In this document: positions 24,239 through 31,505 of the stretch, piece after piece
Position numbering within the stretch: position 1 is the first letter of the stretch
Layout of the letters: the number at the start of each line of letters is the position of its first letter
NCBI GenBank assembly: GCA_018814025.1
Contig: JAHJAM010000021.1
Coordinates: forward strand, 1 to 38,930
Reading direction: 5' to 3'
Origin: Patescibacteria group bacterium
GTDB taxonomy: Bacteria > Patescibacteriota > Patescibacteriia > UBA9934 > GWF2-40-263
Length of the DNA stretch: 38,930 nucleotides
Notes under the pieces: generated by a model
The model's database searches: none
Told to the model about the DNA's origin: nothing
What the model saw: the letters and a program-made list of their open reading frames with translations, nothing else
Translations under genes and position numbers: made by a program

Positions 24239-27200
24239 TTACTGGACTAACAACCAAAGATCGTCAACCAACATTAGATAATATGTGGCTGTTTGGCTGT
24301 TGTTGCTCAAGGTGACAGCCACTACGTTGTTGAACTGGTTATTGAACCGCGAAGTCCACTGCTGGTGGGTAGTGAGGGTCGCAACATAAAGCTCTTGATC
24401 ACCGATATCTTCGAGGTTAAAAATTGGTTGATAGTGCTCCACGAACCGATCGCGGGTGATCTGGGATTGAGTGGCTTGGGCCACTTGGTCATATATTTCT
24501 GAATACCGGCCGCGGGCTTCCAAATCAACTATTTTAGTCAGAGTATTAAACAAGTTAATATCGAAATAGATTTTCACGGGGAAAGCTTTGGCGGTTTTTT
24601 GATTGTTGACGCTGAACTCTTCCAAACCTTTGACAATCGGACGCAATAAATTGGGGTGAGTTAAGCGCACGCCGTTTTCCAGCGGAATGTCCGTGAAACT
24701 ATACCAGCCGCCTTCATCGGTGCGGATCTGGGTGGTGCCGGCGACCACGTCCACGCCGGGTACGCCTTGTTCTTCAAACGGGCTAACCAGCGAACCGGAC
24801 ACGGAAACAATGGTGGTGGCAATGGCGGGCGCGGCCGGCTGACGGTCAAAAACGCCGGCTTGAAAATTTAGTACCAAGCCGAAAATCAAAGCCAGAACAA
24901 TCGCGATGGCCGCGACAATGGTGGCATTGCGCATATACCAGTGCTGTTTTTTATACTTCTCTTCCAAACTGCAGGTTTTTGTTTGCATTTCTTGAAGGCG
25001 AGCCTCATGGCGCTTGCGCTTGGTGATTTCCTTATCGATCTTATCGCCCAAACGAACCATGTTGGCGCCCAGGGCAATAATGATCAACAAGAGCAGGAAG
25101 ATCGCATAGGCAAAGGCGGGGGGCAAAAGCGGCTGTCCGCCGTCCAATTGCCAGCGCTGGGTCAAGGAACTGGCCAGACGGCTGGCCGCCACTACTTCAC
25201 CAATCAAGATCATGGCGTGATCTTGATGGCCTTGATTATCGTAAGCCGTGATCTGATATAAGCCGGGCTTGAGTTGATTCAAGAGATCCAACTGCCAGTT
25301 GCCGTCGGCGTCCGTGCGCACGCTGGATTCGCTTTCGAAATCGCCGGCTTGGTCGGCGACCAAAATCGTAATAGTTGAGTTGGGCGAGCCTTGGCCGATA
25401 ATGCTGGTCAAATCGGTTTTAACTCGCTGGATGGAGATAATCTTAACCAGACCAGTGTTGCCATCAGGGGTCTGATCGGCGGGTTCTGAAGGTTCTGCCG
25501 GCTCCGTGGGTTGAGCGGGCTGGGCTGGAAGCGCCGGACAAACCGGACATTGCTCGCCCACGCTGCACTCCGCACAAACCGGACAAACGGTTCCCGGTCC
25601 CAAATCAAGATCGGTTAAGGGACACGGGATTTCAATGGAGGCAAAGCGCGGAGCCATCAAAACCTCGTAGCCGAAATAATCATCGCCCTGCATGCCGCTG
25701 ACGGGCCGGAAATAATAGAGCCGACCAGTGGTTAAACCATCGATCACTACGGCGTGATAGAGCGAGTCAGTGGGATATTCCATGGTGAAATACTGATACC
25801 CGTAGCTGGGGGCATATAACAATTCGTCATGGGAGTAGAAATCATAAAGCACCAGACTGGAACCCGGATAATTGGTGTTCCAGGAAACCAAGACCGAATC
25901 CTCATCGATTTGAATGACGCTGATGGTGGATTGATTGATTTCCGGATAAACCGTGCCGCCGCCATAATTGCCGCCGCCGCCCGTGCAAGCCGGACAAGGA
26001 CCGGTGGCGTTGGGATCTTCCACGGCCAGAGCGTAAACATAACGCTCCATGATGTTGCCGTCCGTATCTTTGGCATAAATGAGAACGGGCACGGCTTCGC
26101 CGACCGTGAAATCGGTTTCCGGATCCAGGGTGAAAGTATAATCGCCGGCCGAACCGGAGACGGTGGTGGTGTCACCCAAATAATTGCCGCCGTTGAAATC
26201 AAGGCTGTCGGCAAAAGTAATGCGCGTGCCGTTAGTGGTGACGGAGCCGGCTCCGCCCCCGTCGGTGTAATAAACGCCGTTGACGTAAATCACGACATTG
26301 CTCAAATCCACGCCGCTGCCGTCGTCTTTAATATGAAAATTGAGGCTGGCGTCTTCGGAAATCAAAGTGTCGTCAGCGGGGGAAACTTGATCCACGTAGG
26401 GGGCCGAGGTGTCGGCCGTAGTGAAAGTCCAGGTGTCAGTGATCATGACGTTGCTGGCCAAGTCTTCGCAATCGTAGGCGCTGACCGTGACGGTTTCGTT
26501 TTGGGCAAAATCCGTGCCCGGATTGATCACGAATTGGTAGCCATAATCAACGGCCGTAGTGGTCACGCCCGCGTCGCCTGGCTGATAAGTGGTGAGAGTG
26601 AAAGACGGCGAAGAAACATTAAAACGGCAAGTGGAGGCATCCACGCCCGTGCCGGAGATGGAACCGGGGTAGGTTTTTTTGTCATGCACTACAATTGTAA
26701 TGTTGGTGGAAATACTGTTGCCGGATGAACCGCGAGTCGGGGTTTCGGCCACCACGCGCGGGGGAACAGTGTCGGCTTCGGTGGTGAAGCTCCAGGATTT
26801 GGGGTTCATGGTGTTGGGGCCGTTGGCGTCCCCGAGCTGGTTTTGAGCGGACGAGGCCAAGTCTTGGAAACCGCTGACATCAACCACGTAGGTGGTATTG
26901 TATTCAAAATTGCGGCTATCGCCGGGAATACCCGAGGGCGGAGGCGGATTGACGGTCACGCCGCAATAGTTCGTGCCCCAGATCCCGGAACAGGAGAAAG
27001 AGTCGTAGGCCGCGTAGCTGGACGCGCCGCCGCCATCGTCAAAAGTCAGGACGCCGGGCGGTTCGGCCGTGTTGACGCCCGTGCCCACGCCAGTGTTATC
27101 GCCTTCGCCATTTAAAGTATCGCGCAAATCGTAAGTATAGTTGGTTTCCACGGACACGCCGGTGGCGGTGTCGCCGGGACTTGGGTTTTCCGCAAACGGC

Positions 27201-27781
27201 TTGATGGTATCGGCCCAAAGATGCAATTGAAAATCTTCTTCATCATCCAGCAAATCCGAACCGCCCAAAGCGATGTTGGATTCAGTGGTGTTGCCGATGG
27301 TGCCCACGTTGATATCTAAAATTTCCGGCGTGGCCGTGTTGTAGCCCGCGGCATTGGGCGCGTCCACAGTCCAATTGACCCAGCCGAAATTGCCCGTGCC
27401 GCTCGAGACTCCGCTAGTGCGGAAGCCGGTTAAATAAACCCGGCCGCCCACGATGGTCTGGCCGGAGTAACTGGGATAATAAGTGCCGTCGATTAGATTG
27501 CTGGCCGTGAGCTTGGCGGTGTTGTAATCAATCCAAATATTGGCCGCGTCCGTGCCCCCGGCTTTAATGCGCATGGCCGTGGTAAAGGTTTGGCCCACGT
27601 AGTAGTAATTAAAATTCGCGGGCAGGCCGGTGCCGCCGTCGCCGGTGTTATCGCTGCCGGTAAAAGGGCTGGCGTTTAATTCAAAAGTCTCATTGCCCAC
27701 GGGCGCGGCCGCCAAAGCCGGCAGGGCTAAAAAGCCTGCCAGAGTAAGGGTGAGAAGAATTGTGTAAAGCCTCCTGTTCAT
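24239..27781 (-). CDS. large surface protein: cohesin-like and Ig-like domains, two membrane helices
   Basis: A 1180-aa exported protein. Signal peptide 1-25 (ALAA). Residues about 40-175 resemble a cohesin fold (YYVGQTFTTAMRIKAGG, then WIDYNTAKLTASNLIDG and GTGNFGWVNWTV). Three Big_5/SbsA-like Ig domains follow to about 590 (each opening like PPRVVAETPTRG or APYVDQVSPADD), then an FN3-like domain, a Cys-rich CPxC stretch near 730 and another Ig-like domain. Helices at about 886-908 and 950-972 bracket a short Lys/Arg-rich coiled coil. The C-terminus has a carboxypeptidase-regulatory-like fold and a helical domain recalling NTF2-like proteins. Probably an envelope scaffold. Its dockerin-like upstream neighbour is a candidate partner. 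Confidence 0.8.
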   Translation of the reverse strand: MNRRLYTILLTLTLAGFLALPALAAAPVGNETFELNASPFTGSDNTGDGGTGLPANFNYYYVGQTFTTAMRIKAGGTDAANIWIDYNTAKLTASNLIDGTYYPSYSGQTIVGGRVYLTGFRTSGVSSGTGNFGWVNWTVDAPNAAGYNTATPEILDINVGTIGNTTESNIALGGSDLLDDEEDFQLHLWADTIKPFAENPSPGDTATGVSVETNYTYDLRDTLNGEGDNTGVGTGVNTAEPPGVLTFDDGGGASSYAAYDSFSCSGIWGTNYCGVTVNPPPPSGIPGDSRNFEYNTTYVVDVSGFQDLASSAQNQLGDANGPNTMNPKSWSFTTEADTVPPRVVAETPTRGSSGNSISTNITIVVHDKKTYPGSISGTGVDASTCRFNVSSPSFTLTTYQPGDAGVTTTAVDYGYQFVINPGTDFAQNETVTVSAYDCEDLASNVMITDTWTFTTADTSAPYVDQVSPADDTLISEDASLNFHIKDDGSGVDLSNVVIYVNGVYYTDGGGAGSVTTNGTRITFADSLDFNGGNYLGDTTTVSGSAGDYTFTLDPETDFTVGEAVPVLIYAKDTDGNIMERYVYALAVEDPNATGPCPACTGGGGNYGGGTVYPEINQSTISVIQIDEDSVLVSWNTNYPGSSLVLYDFYSHDELLYAPSYGYQYFTMEYPTDSLYHAVVIDGLTTGRLYYFRPVSGMQGDDYFGYEVLMAPRFASIEIPCPLTDLDLGPGTVCPVCAECSVGEQCPVCPALPAQPAQPTEPAEPSEPADQTPDGNTGLVKIISIQRVKTDLTSIIGQGSPNSTITILVADQAGDFESESSVRTDADGNWQLDLLNQLKPGLYQITAYDNQGHQDHAMILIGEVVAASRLASSLTQRWQLDGGQPLLPPAFAYAIFLLLLIIIALGANMVRLGDKIDKEITKRKRHEARLQEMQTKTCSLEEKYKKQHWYMRNATIVAAIAIVLALIFGLVLNFQAGVFDRQPAAPAIATTIVSVSGSLVSPFEEQGVPGVDVVAGTTQIRTDEGGWYSFTDIPLENGVRLTHPNLLRPIVKGLEEFSVNNQKTAKAFPVKIYFDINLFNTLTKIVDLEARGRYSEIYDQVAQATQSQITRDRFVEHYQPIFNLEDIGDQELYVATLTTHQQWTSRFNNQFNNVVAVTLSNNSQTATYYLMLVDDLWLLVQ

Positions 27782-27830
27782 AAGGGTTTAAAGTCGAAAG
27801 TCGAAAGTGGGTTGATTATTGGAGAAGCGT

Positions 27831-27868
27831 CCCCCCTCCTTACCAAGGAGGGGCTGGGGGTGGTTGCC
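27831..27868. repeat. R1: partial copy of the GC-rich palindromic repeat
   Basis: Matches the right half of R3 almost base for base: ccccctcctt acc aaggagggg hairpin, then ctgggggtggttgcc. The left half is missing. It sits 50 bases upstream of the large cohesin-like gene. Confidence 0.8.
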
Positions 27869-27932: not shown

Positions 27933-28018
27933 GGCAACCCCCCTTTGTCCCCCCTTAGGAAGGGGGGAGACAGGCTTGTACCCCCCTCCTTCCCAAGGAG
28001 GGGTTGGGGGTGGTTGCC
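27933..28018. repeat. R2: full 86-bp palindromic repeat left of the DUF559 gene
   Basis: Ends ggcaacc and ggttgcc are inverted. Inside are two hairpins, cccccctt/aaggggggg-type and ccctcctt/aaggaggg, around a variable 15-base middle. Same orientation as R3. It ends one base before the DUF559 stop codon. Confidence 0.85.
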
Positions 28019-28019
28019 A

Positions 28020-28379
28020 CTAGTGATCATTGAGGTGTTGCCTGATAGTATCAATTACCCCCTCAATACTATCTCTGATGTCAGTATTATTAAATCTGAT
28101 TATTTTTATTTGATTTTGCTCAATTTGTTGTGTTCGTATCTTGTCATGTTGTATTCCTGATTCTTCAAAATGACTATCTCCATCAAGTTCAATTACCAGT
28201 TTTGCTTCAGGGCAATAGAAATCTGCAATATAATCACCTATTCCATGTTGTCGCCGAAACTTGAACCCGTTGAGTTTTTTATTGCTTATTTCTTTCCATA
28301 ATATTTTTTCTGGCTCTGTTGGCTCGTTGCGTAGTTTCTTTCGGAATTCTTTTTGCTTCCTTAGATTAAAAATCTTCAT
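28020..28379 (-). CDS. DUF559 endonuclease-like protein
   Basis: A 119-aa protein of the DUF559 family, a small relative of Vsr-type and restriction-like nucleases. It shows the family pattern in order: TEPEKILWKE (21-30), FKFRRQHGIGDYIADF (39-54), the acidic core KLVIELDGDSH (60-70) and a closing IIRFNN with helix. Asp53, Glu64 and Asp66 are likely metal ligands. No SD or promoter can lie outside the adjoining repeat, because R3 begins five bases upstream, so expression must come from within R3 or from read-through of the dockerin gene. Codons are AT-rich, unlike the neighbours, suggesting transfer. Confidence 0.85.
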   Translation of the reverse strand: MKIFNLRKQKEFRKKLRNEPTEPEKILWKEISNKKLNGFKFRRQHGIGDYIADFYCPEAKLVIELDGDSHFEESGIQHDKIRTQQIEQNQIKIIRFNNTDIRDSIEGVIDTIRQHLNDH

Positions 28380-28384
28380 ATGCT

Positions 28385-28471
28385 GGCAACCCCCCTTTGT
28401 CCCCCCTTGGGAAGGGGGGAGACGAATTTGCGTCCCCCCTCCTTACCAAGGAGGGGCTGGGGGTGGTTGCC
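28385..28471. repeat. R3: full 87-bp palindromic repeat right of the DUF559 gene
   Basis: Nearly identical to R2 outside the variable middle: same ggcaacc...ggttgcc ends, same two hairpins, plus gggggagacg/cgtccccc complementarity around the centre. The whole unit can fold into one long branched hairpin on either strand. Confidence 0.85.
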
Positions 28472-28527: not shown

Positions 28528-29226
28528 TTAGTTATCTCCCACCCCGTCGAGATTCCCAATCATCCAGCTTAGGTCCACGGAGTTGACCACGATGTCTTGA
28601 TTGAGGTTGGCGCGAATAGCATTGCCAGTGACATCATCGTCATCGATATTCACCAGCAAGGTTGAGATGTCCACGGAGTTGACCACGTCATCGCCCAAAG
28701 TGGCCGGATCCGTGCCCGCATCATTCACATCCCCGGTTAAGAGCACTTGATCGCCGCGCGGGGCCGAGTTATCAGGCTGGGAAAAGTTTAAAACATTATT
28801 GCCCGCGACCAGGACGATGTCATTCAAAACGCGGGTTAAGTGCTGCTGGCCTTTGAGGCCGATATCATAGGTGCCGGGAGTAAGGCCGGTTAAAGGGATG
28901 GCGGGCGCGGCATACACGCCGGCCACATCCGTGGTGGCTAAATCAACTTGAGTGAAGAGCACCACGTCGTCCGCGTCATTGGCCGTGCGCACGGTTAAAT
29001 AGAAAGTGGTATCCGAGTTGGTTTGATCCGCGCCCACGCGGCCTTGCGGGCGCACGGAATCGATGGTTACGGTCATGGCCGGGCCAAGCACGCGCGCGGT
29101 AATGCTCACATCTTCGGCGAAAGCCTGCTGATAAATAAAGATAGCTCCAATGAAAATAGTGGCGCATACTCCAATACCCGCCAGTATCTCATGACTCAAT
29201 GCAATCTTTGGCTTTTTTTTTGCCAT
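28528..29226 (-). CDS. exported protein with C-terminal dockerin-like domain
   Basis: A 232-aa protein. A signal/anchor helix at 14-37 ends AFA-ED. A beta-rich domain fills about 40-160. Residues 164-232 look like a type I dockerin: two EF-hand-like halves each containing VVNSVDxS (DDVVNSVDISTLL and DIVVNSVDLSWMI). The first calcium loop carries an extra nine or so residues between its Asn and Asp ligands. Dockerins bind cohesin domains, and the next recognisable gene downstream encodes a cohesin-like protein. The promoter is 13 bases upstream, with no SD. Confidence 0.8.
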   Translation of the reverse strand: MAKKKPKIALSHEILAGIGVCATIFIGAIFIYQQAFAEDVSITARVLGPAMTVTIDSVRPQGRVGADQTNSDTTFYLTVRTANDADDVVLFTQVDLATTDVAGVYAAPAIPLTGLTPGTYDIGLKGQQHLTRVLNDIVLVAGNNVLNFSQPDNSAPRGDQVLLTGDVNDAGTDPATLGDDVVNSVDISTLLVNIDDDDVTGNAIRANLNQDIVVNSVDLSWMIGNLDGVGDN

Positions 29227-31406: not shown

Positions 31407-31505
31407 AGACCCCCTCCCGACCTCCCCCTTCGTAAGGGGGAGGAGGACGCGCCGTGTCCTTTTGGACTCCCCCTCCTTACCAAGGAGGGGGCTGGGGGGA
31501 GGTCT
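31407..31505. repeat. R4: diverged 99-bp copy of the palindromic repeat
   Basis: Same plan as R2 and R3 (ccccctccttaccaagg hairpin on the right, ccccctt/aaggggg on the left, variable middle), but the ends are agacc/ggtct instead of ggcaacc/ggttgcc. It lies 13 bases after the stop of the giant gene. Confidence 0.75.

Follow-up and report, generated by a model that had tools for sequence, protein, structure and literature searches.

In RAYT-REPIN systems, or REPtrons, short palindromic units of the GTAG REP type occur in inverted pairs (REPINs), and one nuclease gene, coding for a tyrosine transposase of the HUH type, lies between inverted units. Such systems persist vertically and have solo copies elsewhere as well as copies within genes. 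Rickettsia palindromic elements (RPEs), which Ogata et al. are said to have found inserted in frame in conserved genes, belong to families, CGTC among them, for which no enzyme gene is known. The homing endonuclease I-Bth0305I, of the EDxHD/Vsr-like type (3r3p), is a mobile intron endonuclease.

A different kind of repeat, described as PIT (Hoyne and Maher) and as TM/TMECO (Holder et al. 2015, PMC4666352), consists of a hairpin, a second loop of 3 nt (TTA and others) and a purine tail following a class II triplex code, and also occurs as inverted pairs. E. coli K-12 has 23 of these intrastrand triplex motifs, and more than 260 sequenced bacteria carry them (PMC4666352). A stable triplex was not seen in vivo in E. 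coli by DMS footprinting, and no mobility gene was found near the motifs in the published work (PMC4666352). Here we describe a locus in which repeats of this design have a likely partner gene, coding for a small nuclease of the DUF559 family.

A DUF559 gene between inverted hairpins

The window, meaning the whole stretch of 38,930 nucleotides that was analysed, carries the following features:

28020..28379, minus strand: DUF559 (PF04480) nuclease gene, 119 aa, GC 0.34
28385..28471, no strand: R3, REPIN-like repeat upstream of the DUF559 gene, reading ggcaacc, putative triplex hairpin (minus strand), spacer, putative triplex hairpin (plus strand), ggttgcc
28385..28423, minus strand: R3 unit A, AAGGGGGGA-caa-AGGGGGG-ttgcc, tail toward the gene
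28430..28471, plus strand: R3 unit B, pyrimidine arm CCCCTCCTT, loop acc, purine arm AAGGAGGGG, 3-nt loop ctg, putative third-strand tail GGGGTGG, end motif TTGCC
27933..28018, no strand: R2, REPIN-like repeat downstream of the DUF559 gene, layout as R3, 85% identity to R3 over the first 55 nt
27827..27868, plus strand: R1, single putative triplex-hairpin unit (gcgtCCCCCCTCCTTaccAAGGAGGGGctgGGGGTGGTTGCC), half copy
31408..31504, no strand: R4, diverged full repeat without the gene, two inverted putative triplex-hairpin units with tails ...gaggtc

R2 is separated from the stop codon of the gene by one base (28019) and R3 from its ATG by five bases (28380-28384), so that the gene and the two repeats form a compact unit of 539 bp (27933-28471), as an earlier note on this DNA had described. 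The same note had reported the repeat ends ggcaacc/ggttgcc with two hairpins, found again in R2 and R3, the gene-less half copy R1 and diverged copy R4, both confirmed, and the AT-richness of the gene (GC 0.34, against 0.51 for the window). For the window, that note's account of the two as direct repeats is accurate, and it can be refined: the basic unit is the half repeat, a hairpin plus tail, and the units are inverted about the gene. R2, R3 and R4 are inverted dimers of one such unit (hairpin, purine tail, GGTTGCC end) and R1 is a single one, an organisation like that of REPINs. The likeness that the earlier note saw to REP-associated enzymes is in keeping with this layout. No gene for an HUH tyrosine transposase lies between the window repeats, where DUF559 is the only gene, and the units end in a purine tail followed by TTGCC, TTA, TCG or similar, with no GTAG tag; lacking both the enzyme and the tag, the window element is not a member of the REPtrons. 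Its neighbours, read by eye, are an 1180-aa surface protein with Ig-like and purple-acid-phosphatase-N parts (24239-27781) and a 232-aa protein with a dockerin-like stretch at its end (28528-29226).

In the 978-kb genome to which the window belongs, pattern searches allowing up to 3 mismatches hit the core palindrome CCCCTCCTTnnnAAGGAGGGG at only 21 places, and a reversed control pattern at none. Nine of these 21 copies lie at the two stand-alone DUF559 genes, C21 and C10. This genome has a third DUF559 domain (L003), fused to a UvrD-like helicase; it is not of the stand-alone type and falls outside the repeat pattern. Chance is excluded as an explanation.

The window protein matches the Pfam family DUF559 with E = 4.9e-32 (110.5 bits, curated cut-off 20.6). 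Residues E24, W28, F41, Q44, D53, E64, D66, H70 and D79 are invariant in alignments of 35 and 49 sequences. Across phyla, little or no variation is seen at the positions that make up a PD-(D/E)XK-type site (D53, E64, D66, H70, D79, R82, R95 and N98), a conservation which indicates that selection maintains an active enzyme. The closest structures by sequence profile are NGO0050 of Neisseria gonorrhoeae (3hrl, E = 3.5e-32) and I-Bth0305I (3r3p, E = 2e-5). A search by fold with the AlphaFold model of the window protein (pLDDT 85) placed the same two first (3hrl, E = 4e-6; 3r3p, E = 4e-4), with Vsr (1vsr) at rank 11 (E = 0.11). The protein is thus predicted to adopt the Vsr/EDxHD-type PD-(D/E)XK fold of I-Bth0305I, to which it is related by its catalytic fold and by distant sequence similarity. 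Unlike that enzyme, the DUF559 protein is stand-alone and repeat-flanked, with no intron and no known target site. NGO0050 and E. coli YcjD are DUF559 homologues, and repeats of the same type lie beside ycjD and the gonococcal DUF559 locus; no functional test of either protein was found in the literature searched.

The triplex code of the repeat unit

From 87 loci, 198 distinct units were taken, 163 of which were aligned. Each unit is a hairpin followed by a purine tail that mirrors the purine arm of the hairpin, and the loop between arm and tail is 3 nt long in 137 of the 163. A G in the arm faces a G in the tail in 1001 of 1019 positions (98%), and an A in the arm faces either A (109) or T (157), together 266 of 278 (96%). 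The code excess is 0.940, versus 0.386 +/- 0.032 for shuffled pairs of arm and tail given an equal choice of offset, and the mirror match is better than the direct match in 120 of the 135 units in which the two differ. These are the pairing rules of an antiparallel purine-motif intramolecular triplex (G*G.C, A*A.T, T*A.T), which the units are predicted to form.

Judged by this design (pyrimidine arm, loop, purine arm, short loop, purine tail), which is present in R1, R2, R3 and R4, the repeats are the published intrastrand triplex motifs. The E. coli motif folds as a triplex in vitro by CD and NMR (PMC4666352), and the window repeat is predicted to do so. A search of Rfam returned only below-threshold chance matches to microRNAs. 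The CGTC REPs were considered as part of one family with the triplex repeat and rejected, as the designs of stem and tag differ (PMC3733652).

Association across bacteria and insertions in host genes

A DUF559 homologue is encoded in 41 of 96 related genomes. When the flanks of 31 DUF559 loci were read by eye, palindromes with G runs were seen on both sides at nearly all of them. A script count in the relatives placed palindromes on both sides within 220 bp at 25 of 40 DUF559 genes, versus 6 of 529 other ORFs from the same DNA, which served as controls; among the small ORFs of that DNA the figure was 2 of 172. A scan of GTDB species contigs then yielded 80 DUF559 loci in Patescibacteria, Bacteroidota, Proteobacteria, Nitrospirota, Chloroflexota, Planctomycetes, Cyanobacteria and others, across which 45 of 78 DUF559 genes are framed on both sides versus 4 of 799 other ORFs (Fisher p = 2.7e-49). 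The link to repeats at DUF559 genes elsewhere, on which the earlier note had made its proposal depend, exists both in the relatives and in many phyla. The loci having been collected for their similarity to the window protein, the association holds for this DUF559 subfamily.

In the relatives, palindromes reach a density of 11 per kb in the first 50 bp around DUF559 and drop to 0.03-0.09 per kb at 1-10 kb; over the same two distances, the set from many phyla shows 7 per kb and 0.04-0.09 per kb. Hairpins satisfying the strict triplex pattern reach 2.84 per kb up to 300 bp from DUF559 and 0.044 per kb beyond 1 kb, with none in local shuffles; a strict unit within 300 bp is missing at 34 of 121 loci. 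The tail of the nearest unit points toward the gene in 116 of 153 cases and away from it in 37. Similarity among repeats correlates weakly with similarity among proteins, also across groups (rho 0.15, p = 0.008). The same layout was recognised by eye in S. meliloti, Azospirillum, Neisseria, Photobacterium, Pseudanabaena and Deinococcus, between sufB and sufC in Sphingomonas and, with the repeat on the 3' side, at ycjD of E. coli. Separately, IS elements (IS110-like by eye, and ISAs1) sit inside triplex repeat copies at two loci (L250, L251) on pSymB-type replicons of S. meliloti.

Genomes with DUF559 hold about five times more triplex motifs than those without (mean 11.8 versus 2.4, p = 1.6e-7, 96 genomes). 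There are exceptions in both directions: motifs are numerous in some genomes that lack DUF559 (32 in G038, 19 in G010), and six genomes with DUF559 show no counted motif. Literature searches, with subscription papers and preprints outside their reach, found no link between DUF559, PF04480, COG2852 or YcjD and repeats. The link of DUF559 to triplex motifs, the in-frame cassettes described below and the relation to copy number are new here.

In genome G006, leuS, the gene for LeuRS, carries DUF559 together with its repeats as an in-frame insert (L083). A genome of the same genus (G024) has an empty homologue (L091), with 86% amino acid identity over the compared part. The insert spans CACCTCTCCCCTAACCC... 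to ...GGGAGGGGTG and stands where the homologue has a variable linker some 9 residues long; its junctions end CACC...GGTG with no visible target duplication, but the host linker is diverged. One Bacteroidota genome (G100) carries in-frame DUF559 genes with repeats in hsdR (L210), in two genes for SpoIIE-type phosphatases (L229, L232) and in a gene for a CoA-transferase III (L234). Insertion relative to an empty homologous site was found for these hosts as well as for leuS, and the thrH-recQ gap of Nitrospira offers a further case. RPEs share the in-frame position and differ in that the insert here carries a nuclease. The two SpoIIE-type paralogues hold nearly identical inserts at the same position, which may stem from gene conversion, duplication or site-specific insertion; their similarity reaches into a conserved host motif, and so makes one of the first two possible.

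The gap between thrH and recQ in Nitrospira is seen in four forms: with a DUF559 cassette, with a decayed one, with one gene-less unit, and empty. The DUF559 gene tree follows that of thrH (rho 0.81), which indicates that the cassette is old there, inherited vertically and repeatedly lost, and that movement is rare in Nitrospira. The present, solo and empty forms are read mainly as losses, some of which left a solo repeat. In other Nitrospira species the same gap holds a gene of about 420 bp for a four-helix bundle (S23-like, by eye) between repeats of a TCAGC type, and cassettes of differing kinds alternate there (L257, L261, L262, L268, L275, L276).

The earlier note had also looked to precise loss of the 539-bp unit and to target duplication; no case of the former was found for the window's unit, and no target-site duplication was seen for the cassette. 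Several candidate empty sites were set aside. E. coli lineages without ycjD (L089:6408-6761), a gene present in about 3364 of 5426 complete E. coli genomes, hold the eef efflux operon in its place (PMC12817139). The site beside prfA in Azospirillum is conserved in 7 of 7 records with no empty form, and the strain differences at a solo repeat of S. meliloti are IS insertions into the repeat. The insertion between sufB and sufC in Sphingomonas looks real, but no exact junction emerges from comparison with homologues that are about 75% identical.

Origin and meaning of the association

We consider it probable that the 539-bp unit belongs to a widespread and apparently undescribed type of element, in which a stand-alone DUF559 gene lies between inverted triplex hairpins in the manner of a REPtron, with a nuclease related to homing endonucleases replacing RAYT. 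The differences from REPtrons lie in the enzyme, a predicted Vsr-like PD-(D/E)XK nuclease and not an HUH protein, and in the putative triplex-forming purine tail that replaces the GTAG tag. Published triplex motifs differ in that no mobility gene had been found nearby, where here there is a likely DUF559 partner. The repeat unit would extrude on single-stranded or supercoiled DNA, for example on the lagging strand, and its 3' purine tail would fold back as a third strand. DUF559 would recognise the extruded unit and nick or cut at or beside it. As the cut ends were repaired or copied, single units and inverted pairs could spread to new sites, and less often the entire cassette of gene and repeats. 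The gene would survive by being placed between its own substrates, like RAYT genes between REPs. Binding, cleavage, copying or movement, and the direction of cause, are what we infer from the patterns described above. The suggestion of the earlier note that the nuclease may spread the repeats is strengthened by the link itself, by the larger number of repeats in DUF559 genomes, by the in-frame insertions within conserved genes and by the gene-less solo repeats. The tie of the nuclease to repeat spread is well supported as an association, and spreading by the nuclease is plausible as its mechanism.

Three alternatives were ranked in the order homing, passenger gene and cis-regulation. The repeats might be cleavage sites of a homing-like DUF559, such that gene-less repeats are cut and break repair copies the gene in between, the repeats not being spread by DUF559. 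The relation to I-Bth0305I, the nearly identical inserts of the SpoIIE-type paralogues and the existence of gene-less sites with one or two units (R1, R4, the Nitrospira solo form) are consistent with homing. However, each flank is a complete unit, inverted and with its tail pointing at the gene, and not half of one split site; the inserts of the paralogues are alike as far as a conserved motif of the host; in Nitrospira the tree of the gene matches that of the host; and the excess of repeats in DUF559-positive genomes is something that pure homing would not produce; we regard it as unlikely.

Slightly less likely again is that the repeats are hot spots of recombination or insertion, at which a small selfish or defence nuclease gene gathers without acting on them. 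Genome instability in E. coli has been tied to triplex motifs (PMC4666352), such repeats are entered by IS elements in S. meliloti, and the Nitrospira gap accepts the different, four-helix-bundle cassette in other species. Hot spots of this kind are nevertheless hard to reconcile with the rarity of other genes framed on both sides, small ORFs included, and with a pairing that joins the repeats to one family over many phyla, in fixed orientation and with a weak correlation of repeat and protein. That the repeats supply the promoter, ribosome site and terminator of the nuclease gene, as the earlier note had also proposed, is very improbable: in the window a G-rich tail does precede the ATG by about 10-15 nt, where a Shine-Dalgarno role is possible, but there is no terminator-like site, promoter-like matches are at the level of shuffles, most repeat copies per genome are far from any DUF559 gene, and PIT motifs have neither promoter nor terminator activity in E. 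coli (PMC4666352).

A possible second pairing of repeat and nuclease was also noticed. In A. lipoferum, a GIY-YIG gene flanked by CGTC-type REPs (L252:481-1300) lies between sufB and sufC, the place of DUF559 in Sphingomonas. Among five further GIY-YIG loci, CGTC-type REPs are found on both sides at four (L283, L284, L286, L287) and on the 3' side only at one (L285); the CGTC-type repeat beside a solitary GIY-YIG gene in N. gonorrhoeae is dRS3. CGTC REPs are said to lack a dedicated transposase (PMC3733652), and the pairing with solitary GIY-YIG genes is a lead. We tentatively propose, with less confidence than for the element type itself, a second, non-HUH class of REP systems, in which triplex-hairpin repeats would be propagated by DUF559 proteins that recognise intramolecular triplex DNA, and in a sister class of which solitary GIY-YIG proteins would serve CGTC REPs.

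Two decades of study have given triplex motifs neither a function nor a mobilising enzyme (PMC4666352), and the link to DUF559 points to a likely partner enzyme. The association with one small nuclease family opens a direct test for triplex motifs and for CGTC REPs, for example with E. coli YcjD. If DUF559 reads triplex DNA it would be, to our knowledge, the first dedicated bacterial enzyme for triplex structure. If the proposed class is real, small solitary nucleases would be general and so far unrecognised partners of the palindromic repeats of bacteria that have been held to be without an enzyme.
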